A stretch of 33,615 nt of DNA from a virus. Of this stretch, positions 8,303 through 32,834 are shown one piece after another. Position numbers and translations under genes: made by a program. Under the pieces are notes generated by a model. The model was not told the DNA's origin. It saw only the letters and a list, made by a program, of their open reading frames with translations, and did not search any database. The stretch spans positions 1 through 33,615 of IMG/VR virus record IMGVR_UViG_3300032323_000547; one strand, 5' to 3'. The first letter of the stretch is position 1. Every line of letters starts with the position of its first letter.

Positions 8303-8320
8303 TTTATATAGTTAACCCTA

Positions 8321-8326
8321 TATAAT
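8321..8326 (+). promoter_or_regulatory. Possible -10 box after the capsid gene
   Basis: A perfect TATAAT lies in CCCTATATAATACTTAGAGTAATC. No good -35 is seen 17 bases upstream. The downstream TTAGAGTAATC also occurs after the TATACT promoter at 23262, so this may be a shared promoter or start-site context. With the hairpin at 8348 it would give a very short transcript. Confidence 0.3.
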
Positions 8327-8347
8327 ACTTAGAGTAATCTAAGGTGG

Positions 8348-8387
8348 AGGACGGACCTAAAGACTGCCCCGTTTACGGGTCCGTCCT
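8348..8387 (+). terminator. Stem-loop terminator downstream of the capsid gene
   Basis: A perfect 10-bp stem (AGGACGGACC / GGTCCGTCCT) encloses a loop with an inner CCGT-TT-ACGG mini-hairpin, followed by TCATTTAAAAAAA. The T tract is weak. It may reduce transcription beyond the capsid gene, as is common in phages that need far more capsid than connector proteins, or it may stabilise the capsid mRNA 3' end. Confidence 0.75.
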
Positions 8388-8407
8388 TCATTTAAAAAAA
8401 GGAAGTT

Positions 8408-8512
8408 ATGAAAAGAATTAAGAATATCTTTAAGATTAAAAAAGAGACAGCAAGTGCTACTCCTAAGATGGAGAAGGCTATGTTGCCTAAATTGGAGAAG
8501 AGGAATAAATGA
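8408..8512 (+). CDS. Small basic protein, 34 aa, unknown function
   Basis: The ATG at 8408 follows an A7GGAAG ribosome site, and the stop overlaps the connector ATG (ATGA), which supports translation. The product is strongly basic with Lys/Arg-rich ends (MKRIKNIFKIKKE...) and no recognisable domain. Its first residues resemble those of the 25-aa product at 19442 (KRIK..FK). It could be a minor virion protein or mainly serve to couple translation of the connector gene past the upstream stem-loop. I do not recognise a family. Confidence 0.5.
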   Translation: MKRIKNIFKIKKETASATPKMEKAMLPKLEKRNK

Positions 8513-24114: not shown

Positions 24115-24207
24115 ATGACAGACCATACAGAAGAAATTTTAGAAGAAGAACTTTTCGTCACAAGCATAGACGCAGAAGGAAATATCACAACAACACCTGT
24201 TGTTTGA
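24115..24207 (+). CDS. Small acidic protein, 30 aa, IDAEGN type
   Basis: A strong AAGGAGA site starting within the preceding stop codon region supports translation. The product is very acidic (TDHTEEILEEELF) and then forms a hairpin VTSIDAEGNITTTPVV like that in its neighbour. Its TGA overlaps the -35 box of the downstream promoter. Confidence 0.6.
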   Translation: MTDHTEEILEEELFVTSIDAEGNITTTPVV

Positions 24208-24232
24208 CATGTGTTATAACACCTGCTATACT
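24204..24232 (+). promoter_or_regulatory. Strong extended promoter TTGACA-17-TGC-TATACT with palindromic operator
   Basis: A perfect -35 (24204-24209), 17-base spacing, extended -10 TGC and TATACT (24227-24232) point to a strong promoter. Transcription should begin near 24239. The spacer contains a perfect 12-base palindrome, GTGTTATAACAC (24211-24222), so a dimeric regulator may control it. Confidence 0.8.
24211..24222. promoter_or_regulatory. Palindromic operator GTGTTATAACAC
   Basis: Perfect 12-base inverted repeat between -35 and -10. A bound dimer would block or remodel RNA polymerase. No such palindrome was noticed in the other promoter spacers of the window. Confidence 0.5.
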
Positions 24233-24238
24233 AATATT

Positions 24239-24327
24239 CTATGAAGTTCACCTCCGTGATTTCCATAGAACCTGAAGGGCCTTACAGAGTTTAATCCCAT
24301 TCTCTTTGTAGGGCCCTTCTTCTTTTG
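24239..24327 (+). ncRNA. Candidate small RNA between promoter and terminator
   Basis: About 89 bases from the expected start to the end of the terminator, without an ORF or ribosome site of use. The 5' end forms a 7-bp hairpin (TTCTATG / CATAGAA, 24237-24270) whose loop carries ACCTCC, the anti-Shine-Dalgarno core, so it might bind ribosome sites of mRNAs. The 3' hairpin is the terminator. The next promoter is separate, 42 bases downstream. Confidence 0.55.
24274..24327 (+). terminator. Rho-independent terminator of the small RNA
   Basis: An 8-bp stem GAAGGGCC / GGCCCTTC (24274-24281 with 24312-24319), extended inside by imperfect TTACAGAG / CTCTTTGTA pairing, followed by TTCTTTTG. Confidence 0.78.
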
Positions 24328-24368
24328 TCCCTTATGTCCGTTTTGTCCTATTTCTAAAACAGGCATAG

Positions 24369-24398
24369 TTGACACTTATTAAACAATCATGGTAAGAT
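24369..24398 (+). promoter_or_regulatory. Promoter TTGACA-18-TGG-TAAGAT
   Basis: Perfect -35 (24369-24374), 18-base spacing and extended -10 (TGG, TAAGAT at 24393-24398). Transcription should start near 24405, which places the upstream ATG at 24412 too close for a ribosome site but suits the ATG at 24427. Confidence 0.7.
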
Positions 24399-24426
24399 AG
24401 ATACACGACACATGAATGGGGCAGAA

Positions 24427-24729
24427 ATGTACATTAAGCAGGTACGATCAAAAGACAACAGGTATAGCACTGTTGAGTATGACAACGATGGAAACATTAT
24501 TTTGCAAACAAAGGCTGCAAGAAAAGCCAGAGCAGAAGCAAGAAAAAAAGAAGAAGCAAAAAAACAAAAGTTAAAAACTGCTGTAAAATGTAGTGCATTA
24601 ACAAAGAAGATGAAGCCTTGTCCAAACATCGTTGATGAATGGCGAGGTGGTACATTATGTCATGTACATGATCCAAACGGAACATTTAGAACACAAGTCA
24701 AAGAAAAAAGGGAACGATACAAAAAATAA
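24427..24729 (+). CDS. Small basic protein with CxxxT-CP...CHVH zinc-binding motif
   Basis: The ATG at 24427 is chosen because GGGG of ATGGGGC lies 5 bases upstream; an in-frame ATG at 24412 is the alternative. The 100-aa product has a beta part (STVEYDNDGNIILQ), a charged helix of Lys/Ala/Arg/Glu (about residues 30-55) and a C-terminal CSALTKKMKPCPN...LCHVHDPNG with Cys/His ligands, a small zinc-finger type found in many actinobacterial phages. It may bind nucleic acid. Its own promoter suggests early or regulated expression. Confidence 0.72.
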   Translation: MYIKQVRSKDNRYSTVEYDNDGNIILQTKAARKARAEARKKEEAKKQKLKTAVKCSALTKKMKPCPNIVDEWRGGTLCHVHDPNGTFRTQVKEKRERYKK

Positions 24730-25035
24730 AATTGCAGTAAACAAATACTCTTTTCAGAATCTGAGTGTACTCTCAGAGGGAACAACACCTAGGGTTACAG
24801 TAGGGACCAAGGCGTAAGGTAAAATCTTACAGAGTTTGAGATAAAGTGGAGGATTGGTAATCAGCACTCTCAAAGGAAAGTTTCTGGAGGGCATTAGTAA
24901 AAAATACTAATGAAAGTTCCCTACCTGAGTTGTATCAAAAAACAATTACATAATACGCTTGCTTCGCAAGCAAAGCCTTACGGCTTTAGAATCAAGGTAT
25001 TAGACCAGGAGAAGATTCCATGATACAATAAAGTA
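24730..25035 (+). ncRNA. Highly structured noncoding stretch, about 300 bases
   Basis: No convincing gene lies here. Perfect local pairings include TCTGAG/CTCAGA (24760/24772), GTAAG/CTTAC (24814/24826), TTTGAG-AGTG with CACT-CTCAAA (24835-24874) and CATTAGTA-A5-TACTAATG (24892-24912). GTAGGGA/TCCCTAC (24800/24918) encloses the middle ones. A second domain is closed by TTGTATC/GATACAA (24930/25022), then TAATAC/GTATTA (24951/24997), which holds two abutting hairpins GCTTGC-TTC-GCAAGC and AAAGCC-TTAC-GGCTTT. GAATC/GATTC could pair across. It may be an RNA gene, a long 3' leader element or a replication origin. Confidence 0.6.
25000..25029 (+). promoter_or_regulatory. Possible promoter TTAGAC-18-TGA-TACAAT (leaderless start at 25036)
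   Basis: Extended -10 TGA-TACAAT (25021-25029) with TTAGAC 18 bases upstream. The expected start, 7 bases after the -10, is the A of ATG at 25036. The -10 also forms the closing strand of the structured domain. Confidence 0.45.
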
Positions 25036-25266
25036 ATGGTAAGAAGATACTTTCATAAGTACATTAACGATAAACACTATAACAAGAAATGGGGTAAACA
25101 AATGGGTGGTCCAGAATATAAGATTTTAACACCAGAAGAAATTAATGGGTATGTAACAAGAGATACAGTACAAGAGTCAATAGATTCTTTGACAGCAGCA
25201 ATAGATAGACTTGATAAATTAATTCATGAATGGGTAGAGGTCTGTCCTTGCAAAGACAAAAAATGA
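25036..25266 (+). CDS. Small protein with C-terminal coiled coil, unknown function
   Basis: From ATG 25036 the product is 76 aa: a basic, aromatic N-terminus (MVRRYFHKYINDKHYNKKWGK), then LTPEEINGYVTRDTVQESID and a coiled-coil-like helix (SLTAAIDRLDKLIHEW) ending CPCKDKK. A leaderless start fits the promoter just upstream. An ATG at 25102 with GGGGT 7 bases before it would give 54 aa without the basic part and is a serious alternative. It ends in an ATGA overlap with the glycosyltransferase. Confidence 0.6.
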   Translation: MVRRYFHKYINDKHYNKKWGKQMGGPEYKILTPEEINGYVTRDTVQESIDSLTAAIDRLDKLIHEWVEVCPCKDKK

Positions 25267-26345: not shown

Positions 26346-26368
26346 AGTCCTAAAAAGGGCTATTTCTT
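26346..26368 (+). terminator. Weak terminator after the glycosyltransferase
   Basis: AGTCC / GGGCT stem of 5 pairs (one G-U) with a TAAAAA loop, followed by ATTTCTTT. The stem is short, so efficiency is doubtful. A promoter follows at once. Confidence 0.35.
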
Positions 26369-26397
26369 TGACAATCGTCATAATAGTGTGATACACT
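26368..26397 (+). promoter_or_regulatory. Promoter TTGACA-18-TGA-TACACT
   Basis: Perfect -35 (26368-26373), 18-base spacing and extended -10 (TGA, TACACT at 26392-26397). The start near 26404 would give a 43-base leader to the zinc-ribbon gene cluster. Confidence 0.65.
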
Positions 26398-28302: not shown

Positions 28303-29031
28303 ATGGACAACAACATGAATGTAGGTAAGTTAACTAAGAGTCAGTATCGTACTCTTAAGTCTAACCTTGCTGAGTTGCCTGAGTTGCAACAAGGTGCTGC
28401 ATCATTTGTTACTCCAGGAAGATCAGGCTCAGGTACAGTAAGCACAGAGAGATCAATTGGTTTCAATGTGAACGCACTAGATTACTCTATGGCTAATGAA
28501 TTGCTTGGGGTCATGCATAAGTATGAAGCAATCATCCGTAGAGGTAGGTCCCTAACTCCTCCAGCCTTACTGAAGAGAGAAGCCACAGTAGAACTAGAGG
28601 TTGCTGCAACAGTCTCATTCCACTTAGCCCATCTTGAATGGACAGTCCAACAGGATTGGGTGGAAGAGTTTGCGGGACTAATAAAGGAACTCCATAGCAA
28701 AGGAATGGCCTGTAATAAGAAGTTCATAGAACAACCAAGAAGAATCCCATGTCCTACTGATGAGTGTAGAGCACATATAGTTATTGATATAGAGAACCTC
28801 ATGGCTGGTGTTACCTGTCATAAGTGTCGTACCTCATGGACTCTCTATAGACTATTAGGGCTGGCGATGAATAATCCCAATAGAACCTTCTGGTTAGATA
28901 TAGATGCTATCTGTCTATGGATGAACATAACCAAGATAGATCTTAACAAGATAGTTAGAGATCACAACATACCCGTAAAGAATGGTCTGTATGATATCTC
29001 TGCTATTGCTAAGGCAAGGAGTTTAGTTTGA
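28303..29031 (+). CDS. DNA-binding-type protein with zinc ribbon and helix-turn-helix-like end
   Basis: Starts after AAAGGGGC with 5-base spacing. The 242-aa product has a helical N-terminal half, a zinc ribbon around C150, C155, C172 and C175 (PCPTDECRAH...TCHKCRTSW), and an end with WMNITKIDLNKIVRDHNIPVKNGLYDISAI, which looks like a helix-turn-helix. Such proteins are common among small genes of actinobacterial phages and may regulate transcription. It directly precedes a strong promoter, which it could control. Confidence 0.7.
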   Translation: MDNNMNVGKLTKSQYRTLKSNLAELPELQQGAASFVTPGRSGSGTVSTERSIGFNVNALDYSMANELLGVMHKYEAIIRRGRSLTPPALLKREATVELEVAATVSFHLAHLEWTVQQDWVEEFAGLIKELHSKGMACNKKFIEQPRRIPCPTDECRAHIVIDIENLMAGVTCHKCRTSWTLYRLLGLAMNNPNRTFWLDIDAICLWMNITKIDLNKIVRDHNIPVKNGLYDISAIAKARSLV

Positions 29032-29056
29032 CATTGTTTAAAATAACCTGTATAAT
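29028..29056 (+). promoter_or_regulatory. Consensus promoter TTGACA-17-TATAAT
   Basis: Both boxes are perfect, with 17-base spacing. It also shares flanking bases (TTGACAT, then CCTG just before the -10) with the promoter at 24204. Transcription should start near 29063, serving the next small genes and perhaps the packaging genes. Confidence 0.85.
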
Positions 29057-30011: not shown

Positions 30012-30530
30012 ATGGCTCAACCAACTGCGGGAAGGCCTCCAAAGCCTAATGAGATTAAAAGACTTCTTGGCAACCCTGGAGGACGACCTTTGCCTGATTT
30101 AAATGTGATTACGCATTTGCCAATGGCTAAAGAAATACCAACACCACCTGAGAGTCTTAAGCATTCAGGATTAGATTTATGGAATCGTGCTTGGGGAATA
30201 GCCGTAACTTGGCTTAGTCCTGTTAGTGATATTGAGGCTATCAAGAATGCATCGCATTTGGCTGATGCTAATGAAGCAGCAAGAGACCGTTATATGATTT
30301 CTACAGAGCCTGCTGATGCTAAGGCATATGTGGCAATTAACAAAGCATACACAGATGCATTGACCTCACTGGGCTTTGATCCAGTTTCTAGATCTCGTTT
30401 AGGTGTAGCAGAAGTACGAGCAGCAACTTCAATTGATAGACTATTGGAGAAGAGAGAGCGTCGTGCTAAAATAGTATTTGACGAAGACACAATCAACCAA
30501 GGGGCAGACAATGAACAAGATAGCAATTAA
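30012..30530 (+). CDS. Terminase small subunit (P27 family)
   Basis: A 172-aa protein with the GRPPKPNEIKRLLGNPGGRPLP N-terminus typical of P27-type small terminases, then helices (HSGLDLWNRAWGIAVTWLSPVSDIEAIKNASHLADAN) and a DPVSRSRLGV segment near the end. It recognises phage DNA and hands it to the large subunit. It overlaps the S1-like gene by 20 bases. Confidence 0.9.
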   Translation: MAQPTAGRPPKPNEIKRLLGNPGGRPLPDLNVITHLPMAKEIPTPPESLKHSGLDLWNRAWGIAVTWLSPVSDIEAIKNASHLADANEAARDRYMISTEPADAKAYVAINKAYTDALTSLGFDPVSRSRLGVAEVRAATSIDRLLEKRERRAKIVFDEDTINQGADNEQDSN

Positions 30531-31314
30531 CGACATAGGGACAGCAGAAGACTTCCTAAGAGCAATAGATGAATCCATGAGATCATACGCAATTGGCGAT
30601 ATGGTTAAGGGCATAGTGGTTCAGATTGATCGTGATGGAGTTCTTGTTGATATAGGATCCAAGATGGAAGCGTTTATTCCAATGAAGGAGATATCAGCAA
30701 GACGAGTGTTTGATGTTTACGATATCTTGTCTATTGGTCAAATGGTCCAAGCCAACATAATCAGACTTGATGAAGAAGGACAGTTCGTCCTATCCATGAA
30801 GGAAGCAGAAGTAATTTCTCTATGGGATCAGGTAGAGGCTATCTGGAACTCTGAGCAAAAGGTTGTTACTGGTGTTATTACCAAGGTTGTTAAAGGTGGA
30901 ATGATTGTTGATATTGGAGTAAGAGCATTCTTACCTTCATCACAATCTCACATAAATAAAGATGCAGACTTTACTACATTTGTAGGTCAAACAGTAGAAG
31001 CCAAGATCATTCAGTTTGAACGACACAAGAGCAACATTGTAATATCTCGCAAGGCTCTTATTGACACTGACCTAAAGCAAGAAAAGATGATTCACCTTAG
31101 CAAACTTAAAGAAGGCCTGGCATATAAAGGAACAGTTTCTGGAATTAATAATTTTGGAGTCTTCGTGTCCCTTGGCCTAGTATCTGGTTTAGTTCATAAA
31201 TCTAAGATGGGCAAATGGACTCCTGAGCAATTTACAGTTGGCCATGAGGTAGAAGTTCAAGTCTTAGAGATTGATTTTGATAACGACAGGCTCTCTCTGG
31301 CATTCAAGGGTTAA
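30511..31314 (+). CDS. Ribosomal protein S1-like RNA-binding protein with three S1 domains
   Basis: The start is ATG 30511 because AAGGGGC ends 6 bases upstream. The 267-aa product has three S1 (OB-fold) domains: about 28-95 (GDMVKGIVVQIDRDGVLVDIGSKMEAFIP), 112-182 (VTGVITKVVKGGMIVDIGVRAFLP) and 198-267 (YKGTVSGINNFGVFVSLGLVSGLVHKSKM). Bacterial S1 binds mRNA leaders on the 30S subunit. This short form lacks the ribosome-docking domains of long S1 proteins. Its insertion between the two terminase genes is unusual. It may favour phage mRNA translation or act in RNA turnover. Confidence 0.9.
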   Translation: MNKIAINDIGTAEDFLRAIDESMRSYAIGDMVKGIVVQIDRDGVLVDIGSKMEAFIPMKEISARRVFDVYDILSIGQMVQANIIRLDEEGQFVLSMKEAEVISLWDQVEAIWNSEQKVVTGVITKVVKGGMIVDIGVRAFLPSSQSHINKDADFTTFVGQTVEAKIIQFERHKSNIVISRKALIDTDLKQEKMIHLSKLKEGLAYKGTVSGINNFGVFVSLGLVSGLVHKSKMGKWTPEQFTVGHEVEVQVLEIDFDNDRLSLAFKG

Positions 31315-31316
31315 TC

Positions 31317-32834
31317 ATGGAGAACAAAATAGAACATTGGCCTCCAACATATCTGTCTCCTGTCTCACATATTGAGAAGGCTAATAGCCGTGGATATGAT
31401 GTTATTGATTTTGCTGAGACGCTTTGTCGTATTACAGAAGACTCTATCGCTGGTAATGTTGGCGAGAAACTAGTCTTGCGTGACTGGCAGAAAGAACTGC
31501 TTATCAATTTATATGCAGAAAACGAAGATGGCCTTCTAAAACATCGCCGTGCTTTGATTGGGATTCCTCGTAAAGCAGGCAAGTCTGCACTTCTATCCAC
31601 TCTGGTGCTAGAGCAGTTATTGCTTGGCGTAAACGGTGGACAGATTTATTCTTGTGCTGCAGATAAAGAGCAGGCTAAGATTATTTTTAAAACGGTAAAG
31701 AGAATGGTTGAACTAGAACCAGAACTCTCAGAGGTATTACAAACATTCAGAGATGTTATATATAATCCTAGTACAGGTACCGTCTATAGAGCCCTTTCGT
31801 CAGAAGCGTTCACAAAAGAAGGTTTAAACTCTACATTTGTGGCATTTGACGAGTTGCACTCACAGCCAAATAGAGAACTATACGACACTATGTCACTTTC
31901 TATGGGTGCTCGTTTAGAGCCAATGCTTGTAGCAATTACCACTGCTGGAACGAAGTATGACTCATCAGGTAAAGAGTCCCTCTGTTTTCAAATGTACAAT
32001 AGAGGCGTACAACTATCCAAAGGAGAGGTTGAAGATCCTTCCTTCTTTTTTGCATGGTATCAGGGCGATGAAAAACTTAACTACAAGGACGAAGATAACT
32101 GGCGTTTAGCAAATCCATCTTATGGCGATATCCTATCTGCAGAAGATATGAAGTCTGCTTCGCTCTTGACTCCAGAGGCTGAATTTAAAACTAAAAGACT
32201 TAATCTATGGACTGACTCTGCTCAGACTTGGATTCCTACAGATGCTTGGGATGCGTTAACTGTTAAGAACAGAGAACAAATTCCTGGCGAAGATGTTATC
32301 TTAGGCTTTGACGGATCCTTTAATGGAGACTCAACAGCAATTGTTGCTTGGTATCTTGGTGGAGAAAAGCCTCACTTAGATGTTTTAGCAATTTGGGAAA
32401 GACCAGATGATGCAGATCAGAACTGGTTCATTCCAGTTGCTGAGGTAGAATCTGCTATAATAGAGGCATACAGAAATCCAGACTACAGCATTCGTGAGGT
32501 AGTATTTGATCCTGCCAGATATTCTAGAACTTTTATGCTATTTGATGAAGAGGGAATGCCCGTCGTGTCTTATCCAAACTCAGCAGAACGAATGGTACCA
32601 GCAACAGCCAAATTTTATGAGGCAGTTATGAATAACTCATTTACTCATTCTGGCCATGAAGCATTAAATAGACATGTAGCAAACTCTATGACGAAAACAT
32701 CCTCAAGAGGACTCATGATTCAAAAAGCAAACAGCAAAAAGAAGATTGACGCTTGCGTAGCATCAATCTTTTCTTATGATCGTGCCACAGTGCCAGTACC
32801 AGTAAAGCCTGTAGCAAGATTCTTTTCACTATAA
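31317..32834 (+). CDS. Terminase large subunit
   Basis: A 505-aa packaging ATPase/nuclease. Walker A is GIPRKAGKS (82-90) and Walker B is FVAFDELH (D178, E179), followed by a TAGTKYDSSG coupling motif. The nuclease part has LGFDGSFNGDSTAI with D332 as a likely metal ligand, and later VVFDPARYS. The HK97-type order around it (HNH, small terminase, large terminase, portal) is kept, although the S1-like gene and the fibre gene are inserted. It starts 2 bases after the S1-like gene stop. Confidence 0.94.
   Translation: MENKIEHWPPTYLSPVSHIEKANSRGYDVIDFAETLCRITEDSIAGNVGEKLVLRDWQKELLINLYAENEDGLLKHRRALIGIPRKAGKSALLSTLVLEQLLLGVNGGQIYSCAADKEQAKIIFKTVKRMVELEPELSEVLQTFRDVIYNPSTGTVYRALSSEAFTKEGLNSTFVAFDELHSQPNRELYDTMSLSMGARLEPMLVAITTAGTKYDSSGKESLCFQMYNRGVQLSKGEVEDPSFFFAWYQGDEKLNYKDEDNWRLANPSYGDILSAEDMKSASLLTPEAEFKTKRLNLWTDSAQTWIPTDAWDALTVKNREQIPGEDVILGFDGSFNGDSTAIVAWYLGGEKPHLDVLAIWERPDDADQNWFIPVAEVESAIIEAYRNPDYSIREVVFDPARYSRTFMLFDEEGMPVVSYPNSAERMVPATAKFYEAVMNNSFTHSGHEALNRHVANSMTKTSSRGLMIQKANSKKKIDACVASIFSYDRATVPVPVKPVARFFSL

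Follow-up and report, generated by a model that had tools for sequence, protein, structure and literature searches.

A structured noncoding RNA of a small phage genome and its replacement by different RNAs at the same position in close relatives

The locus and its surroundings

The window, by which is meant the whole stretch of DNA analysed, is a virus record of 33,615 bases. It encodes portal, head protease, major capsid and tail fibre proteins, glycan-modifying enzymes, the terminase TerL (31317-32834) and an S1-domain protein (30478-31314); no tRNA was found in it. Among cultured phages, Pontimonas phage phiPsal1 has the closest TerL (44%), with Streptomyces phages next, and for this reason the host is likely to be actinobacterial. 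The related contigs used for comparison were taken from IMG/VR and are given L numbers here. The features of the locus are the following:

24369-24398, plus strand: promoter-like site 2 (TTGACA-18-TAAGAT), a consensus match found at the same place in relatives
24412-24729, plus strand: open reading frame of a small basic Cys/His-rich protein of 105 aa, with an N-terminal domain seen only in type A/B phages
24741-24937, plus strand: conserved RNA core of type A, with helices H1-H7 in a five-way junction and hairpin H8 (covariance model score 229.9 bits, and covariation)
24957-24987, plus strand: two abutting hairpins (GCTTGC/GCAAGC and AAAGCC/GGCTTT), found only with RNA types A and B
24989-25018, plus strand: third hairpin (GAATC/GATTC), read by eye and without statistics
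25036-25266, plus strand: 76-aa open reading frame downstream of the RNA

The stretch 24730-25035 is bounded by the stop of the 105-aa frame and the start of the 76-aa frame. An earlier note, made from the sequence alone, had described it as about 300 bases of dense RNA structure without a gene, and both halves of this description stand. The homologues have no open frame in common here, and none of 100 dinucleotide shuffles folded as well as the stretch on either strand (z -3.2 on the plus and -3.8 on the minus strand). When the genome was scanned in 335 windows of 200 nt, those of the stretch scored z -3.1 and -3.5, within the best dozen, and the strongest was the neighbouring sRNA/terminator at 24201-24400 (z -7.8). 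The structure is dense, and folding energy by itself is no proof. The gene that follows the RNA differs between phages, and in some relatives two extra genes and a promoter stand between the RNA and the homologue of the 76-aa frame.

Upstream, an sRNA-like unit (24204-24327) is made up of a promoter-like site, a hairpin TTCTATG/CATAGAA with TTCACCTCC in its loop and an intrinsic terminator. The CCTCC loop is kept in 36 of the 37 contigs; the stems (TCTATG/CATAGA, GTTGAT/ATCAAC) and the terminators vary. In L128 the loop reads GGATCACCTCCT, which resembles the 3' end of 16S rRNA, and the unit is a possible phage mimic of the anti-Shine-Dalgarno sequence. The earlier note also listed a ribosome- or capsid-linked RNA among its candidates; no structural gene adjoins the stretch, but both this unit and the S1-domain protein are conserved in the same phages. 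Pairing of the loop with a GGAGG inside the RNA (24848-24852) was also considered; it is not kept in L128 and was set aside. Transcription of the RNA presumably starts from promoter-like site 2.

The conserved core and its fold

Homologues of the core were found in four other phage contigs (L002, L128/L153, L144 and L154), L002 being 97.6% identical to the window across the initial 287 bases of this region. The core is composed of a five-way junction and a hairpin, with 48 pairs in eight helices over 197 nt. Helix H1 closes the junction of H2, H3/H4, H5 and H6/H7, and H8 follows:

24748-24759, plus strand: 5' strand of H1, pairing with 24882-24891, with a two-base bulge at 24753-24754
24760-24777, plus strand: hairpin H2, with two-sided changes in 4 of its 6 pairs
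24778-24786, plus strand: unpaired GAGGGAACAA, invariant in the alignment, joining H2 to H3
24787-24813, plus strand: H3 with hairpin H4, from the covariation alignment
24814-24830, plus strand: hairpin H5 (GTAAG/CTTAC; GTGAG/CTCAC in L154)
24835-24874, plus strand: H6 with inner hairpin H7, from the covariation alignment
24882-24891, plus strand: 3' strand of H1, from the covariation alignment
24892-24912, plus strand: hairpin H8 (ATTAGT/ACTAAT), from the covariation alignment

This fold was drawn by eye on the alignment of the homologues and covariation was tested on the same alignment, which has only four really distinct sequences and in which L144 is misaligned in H7. With this basis, 96.2% of the cells assigned to pairs were paired, against 33.8-45.1% with the partners slid; two-sided changes were present in 14 pairs, against 1-4 in the slid controls, and the covariation score was matched by none of 500 shuffles. 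The pair of columns 14/151 in H1 varies between G-C, U-G and U-A, and H6/H7 has TTTGAG/CTCAAA in the window and L128 and TTGAAG/CTTCAA in L144 and L154. One position of H3/H4 is never Watson-Crick and changes from A.C to the isosteric G.U in L144/L154. G-U pairs outnumber A-C pairs in this fold, which was chosen with G-U allowed, and in all seven RNA types of the locus (see below) the consensus folds better on the plus, transcribed strand than on the minus strand. Moreover the long unpaired segments GAGGGAACAAC and AAGGAAAG are invariant, and the identity of the core exceeds that of the neighbouring transglycosylase (lysis) gene, both between the window and L128 (0.81 vs 0.69) and between the window and L144 (0.75 vs 0.59). 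A possible pseudoknot between the H4 loop and CUACCUG is suggestive in the window, L144 and L154 and weak in L128.

The novel phage RNA proposed in the earlier note is borne out by the covariation, by the sense-strand consensus folding of seven types and by the lack of an Rfam family. Lack of covariation, or homologues in which the region is a degraded gene, had been named there as grounds for rejecting it, and neither was found. A genuine structured noncoding RNA, presumably transcribed, is thus encoded here, with a fold unlike the one first drawn. The complementary words listed at the time are present, and the two abutting hairpins are kept in all eight type A/B phages; the first was seen in no other locus compared, and the second reads AAAGTCC/GGACTTT in L025 and L096. 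Only the window, L002 and L016 retain the supposed closing stem TTGTATC/GATACAA. Its GATACAA is part of the junction with the next gene and has no nearby partner in L025, L096, L128, L144 and L154. The stem TAATAC/GTATTA is not conserved in the relatives, nor is GGGAAC/GTTCCC, a stem of the minimum-free-energy structure. The words GAATC and GATTC, once thought to be cross-paired, form instead the third local hairpin, whose loop has a CCAgGAGAAG-like motif common to relatives when read by eye.

The covariance model of the core (R1) gave 203-230 bits for the core contigs, and its next match, a weak one of 20.5 bits in L134, lies inside a coding gene, an open frame of 184 aa. R1 finds no RNA of types B-G. 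No credible match was obtained in Rfam 15, GOLLD, ROOL, HEARO and riboswitches included, at the gathering score or at E<=10. In L142 a sub-threshold match to NsiR1 (26.1 bits; gathering score 39) covers its sRNA/terminator region. There were no blastn matches for types A, B, C and G in phages or for type A in plasmids. The pattern of type A was also scanned for in the genomes of 84,980 species, and its two exact matches are attributed to chance because they are inside long open frames (211 aa in L156 and 418 aa in L157) and come without the other motifs. The literature searched holds no description of the RNA; subscription journals were mostly outside that search, and novelty is provisional.

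One slot for several RNAs

The slot was read in about 35 contigs, anchored on the transglycosylase gene just upstream. Its order is constant: the end of the lysis genes, promoter-like site 1, the CCTCC-loop hairpin with its terminator, promoter-like site 2 and a structured RNA, which in types A and B is placed after the small-protein gene. One contig, L103 (= L012), lacks the CCTCC hairpin and holds no recognised RNA type. At least seven RNA types (A-G) of 130-430 nt occupy this one slot. Type A is that of the window and type B that of L016, L025 and L096/L102; type C has 13 distinct sequences and the divergent L021, type D four, type E five, and types F and G three each. With RNAalifold, 3-14 pairs with two-sided changes were counted per type, those of B, F and G from three sequences each, and the covariation of type C is slight because its sequences are so conserved. 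Relative to promoter 2, RNAs of types C-G begin roughly at its start site, and those of types A and B lie about 335 nt behind it.

Phages with different RNAs in the slot have TerL proteins that are 95-98% identical. The borders of the replacement are seen in L016: its flanks are collinear with those of the window, at 87% identity as far as 24742 and 83-91% from 24930 onward, and exactly 24743-24929 is replaced by the type B RNA, a different structured RNA. Judged from the two sequences, one cassette was cleanly exchanged for another, with breakpoints at the edges of the RNA itself.

The RNA is also linked to a protein gene. The N-terminal domain of the 105-aa protein was found only with type A and B RNAs. 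In types C-F the gene directly behind the RNA encodes a related small Cys-rich protein whose Cys/His residues are spaced as in a zinc ribbon, and the type A phages L128 and L154 have a module related to it in front of the RNA. No gene for a small Cys-rich protein adjoins the type G RNA. From their residues, the small proteins of types A-F probably bind zinc. The 105-aa protein belongs to no Pfam or PHROGs family, and the neighbouring proteins had no functional or defence-related match in Pfam, PHROGs and PADLOC. The earlier suggestion of a riboregulator of the glycosyltransferase operon lacks support, since relatives of the glycosyltransferase follow the slot when it holds quite different RNAs; in addition, another gene intervenes.

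Some further features can be mentioned. The type G RNA (L142:3582-4030, L140 and L088), with about 430 nt, is the largest of the slot, and has 14 pairs with two-sided changes in its three sequences. Type C RNAs (e.g. L120:3700-3890) contain GGGCAGA twice, and both copies change in L127 (GGGCAAA / AGGCAAA), as if they shared one partner. A terminator/promoter pair (26346-26397; TTGACA-18-TACACT) stands behind the glycosyltransferase gene.

Possible functions of the RNA

The function that we favour, tentatively and with less than even confidence, is that of an RNA or RNP acting in trans in host takeover or in conflicts between phage and host or between phages. The noncoding RNA would measure about 200-280 nt (core 24741-24937 and tandem 3' hairpins), would be transcribed rightwards together with the gene of the small basic, probably zinc-binding protein and would be one version of an exchangeable cassette, with at least six other structured RNAs at the same position in relatives. 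It may act alone or as an RNP with the neighbouring protein, and its target could be the host or a competing phage, the outcome being host takeover, counter-defence or superinfection exclusion. A changing target might then drive the swapping of the RNA. Action in trans is favoured because the order of gene and RNA varies, because the RNA is linked to a basic protein and because cassettes are exchanged at TerL identities of 95-98%. A fixed role in cis on the start of the small-protein gene is unlikely because the RNA precedes that gene in types C-F and follows it in A and B. Against this reading, type G is without a small Cys-rich protein, PADLOC found no defence-related neighbour, and the placement just behind a promoter suits a cis element equally well.

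This placement recalls phage HK022, in which putL is at the promoter and putR about 270 nt downstream (PMC9378689), and it makes antitermination a serious rival. In both cases a structured phage RNA lies close to a phage promoter, either right at it or some hundreds of bases downstream; here the promoter is promoter-like site 2. The nascent RNA would bind RNA polymerase and allow it to pass pauses and terminators in the promoter 2 operon, where a weak terminator-like site was seen at 26346-26361. However, a put RNA has about 70 nt and two stem-loops (PMC9378689), whereas here there are eight helices over 197 nt, and 130-430 nt with at least seven unrelated folds across the slot. Moreover the operon is short, and another promoter-like site, a strong one, occurs at 26368; in L128, L144, L154, L025 and L096 promoter-like sequences were seen by eye straight after the RNA. 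We consider this explanation unlikely; if the RNAs were antiterminators, they would be a new and much larger variety of put RNA.

It is also rather improbable that the RNA is an autoregulatory or ligand-sensing UTR of the small-protein operon, bound by the protein or by a metabolite. The RNA does adjoin the gene of a small basic Cys-rich protein in types A-F and forms its 5' UTR in types C-F, and C and D have a common 5' motif (CGTTTRGMGAT...ATCAAKGKT). Nevertheless the RNA stands behind that gene in A and B, the next gene varies between phages, and a single regulator would scarcely require seven unrelated folds among phages so nearly identical.

An element acting as DNA, either a recombination site or the replication origin suggested in the earlier note, folding as a single strand, is very unlikely: the slot is a recombination hot spot and the single-sequence z-score of the minus strand is similar, but all seven types have the better consensus fold on the sense strand, the G-U excess points the same way in a fold that allowed such pairs, and no turn in GC skew was found. 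Chance structure or a decayed gene has a negligible probability, for a z of -3.2 would be modest alone but is joined by covariation, by the lack of a common open frame and by conservation above that of the neighbouring coding gene.

Other phage RNAs can be compared with the trans-acting RNA proposed here. GOLLD and ROOL are large structured phage RNAs without a clear function, of 659 to more than 800 nt and often near tRNA islands (PMC12286853). The RNA of the window is likewise structured and without a clear function, but measures about 200-280 nt and matches no Rfam family, and the window has no tRNA. RNA anti-CRISPRs (Racr), as summarised in PMC10651486, mimic CRISPR repeats; they too are phage noncoding RNAs, whereas the fold here is large and multi-branched and a role in host conflict is only the leading guess. 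The manA and wcaG motifs of cyanophages are candidate 5' UTR elements of metabolic genes that were also found by comparative genomics in aquatic phages (PMC2864571). Both are in Rfam, and neither matches here.

Possibly, then, a slot in this clade of small phages is dedicated to the swapping of at least seven unrelated RNA families, mostly with a Cys-rich gene, as an RNA counterpart of the protein loci for anti-defence or immunity; we hold this view tentatively as well. We know of no described phage position at which one whole structured RNA is exchanged for an unrelated one between close relatives. What is new is the RNA families and the slot, and the function may turn out to be a version of one already known. 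Should the targets of these RNAs be host defences, polymerase or ribosomes, a single locus would provide a set of new folds with a shared task, and with it a direct route to the roles of phage RNAs of unknown function.

Elsewhere in the genome, the S1-domain protein has 278 aa with three S1 RNA-binding domains and sits between TerS and TerL. It has no PHROG match. Within the same phage group it is conserved at 87 loci, some of which overlap, with 50-98% identity among those listed. Many related contigs stop about 1,400 bases upstream of TerL, a point which the window crosses at about 29900, and this clustering suggests a fixed genome end there. The intergenic region 8303-8508, after the major capsid gene, ranks among the best-folding parts of the window (z -6.4 and -5.5); it contains GGACGGACC...GGTCCGTCC followed by TTCATTT and is terminator-like. 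Finally, a perfect promoter-like sequence, TTGACA-17-TATAAT, is present at 29028 (29028-29056).
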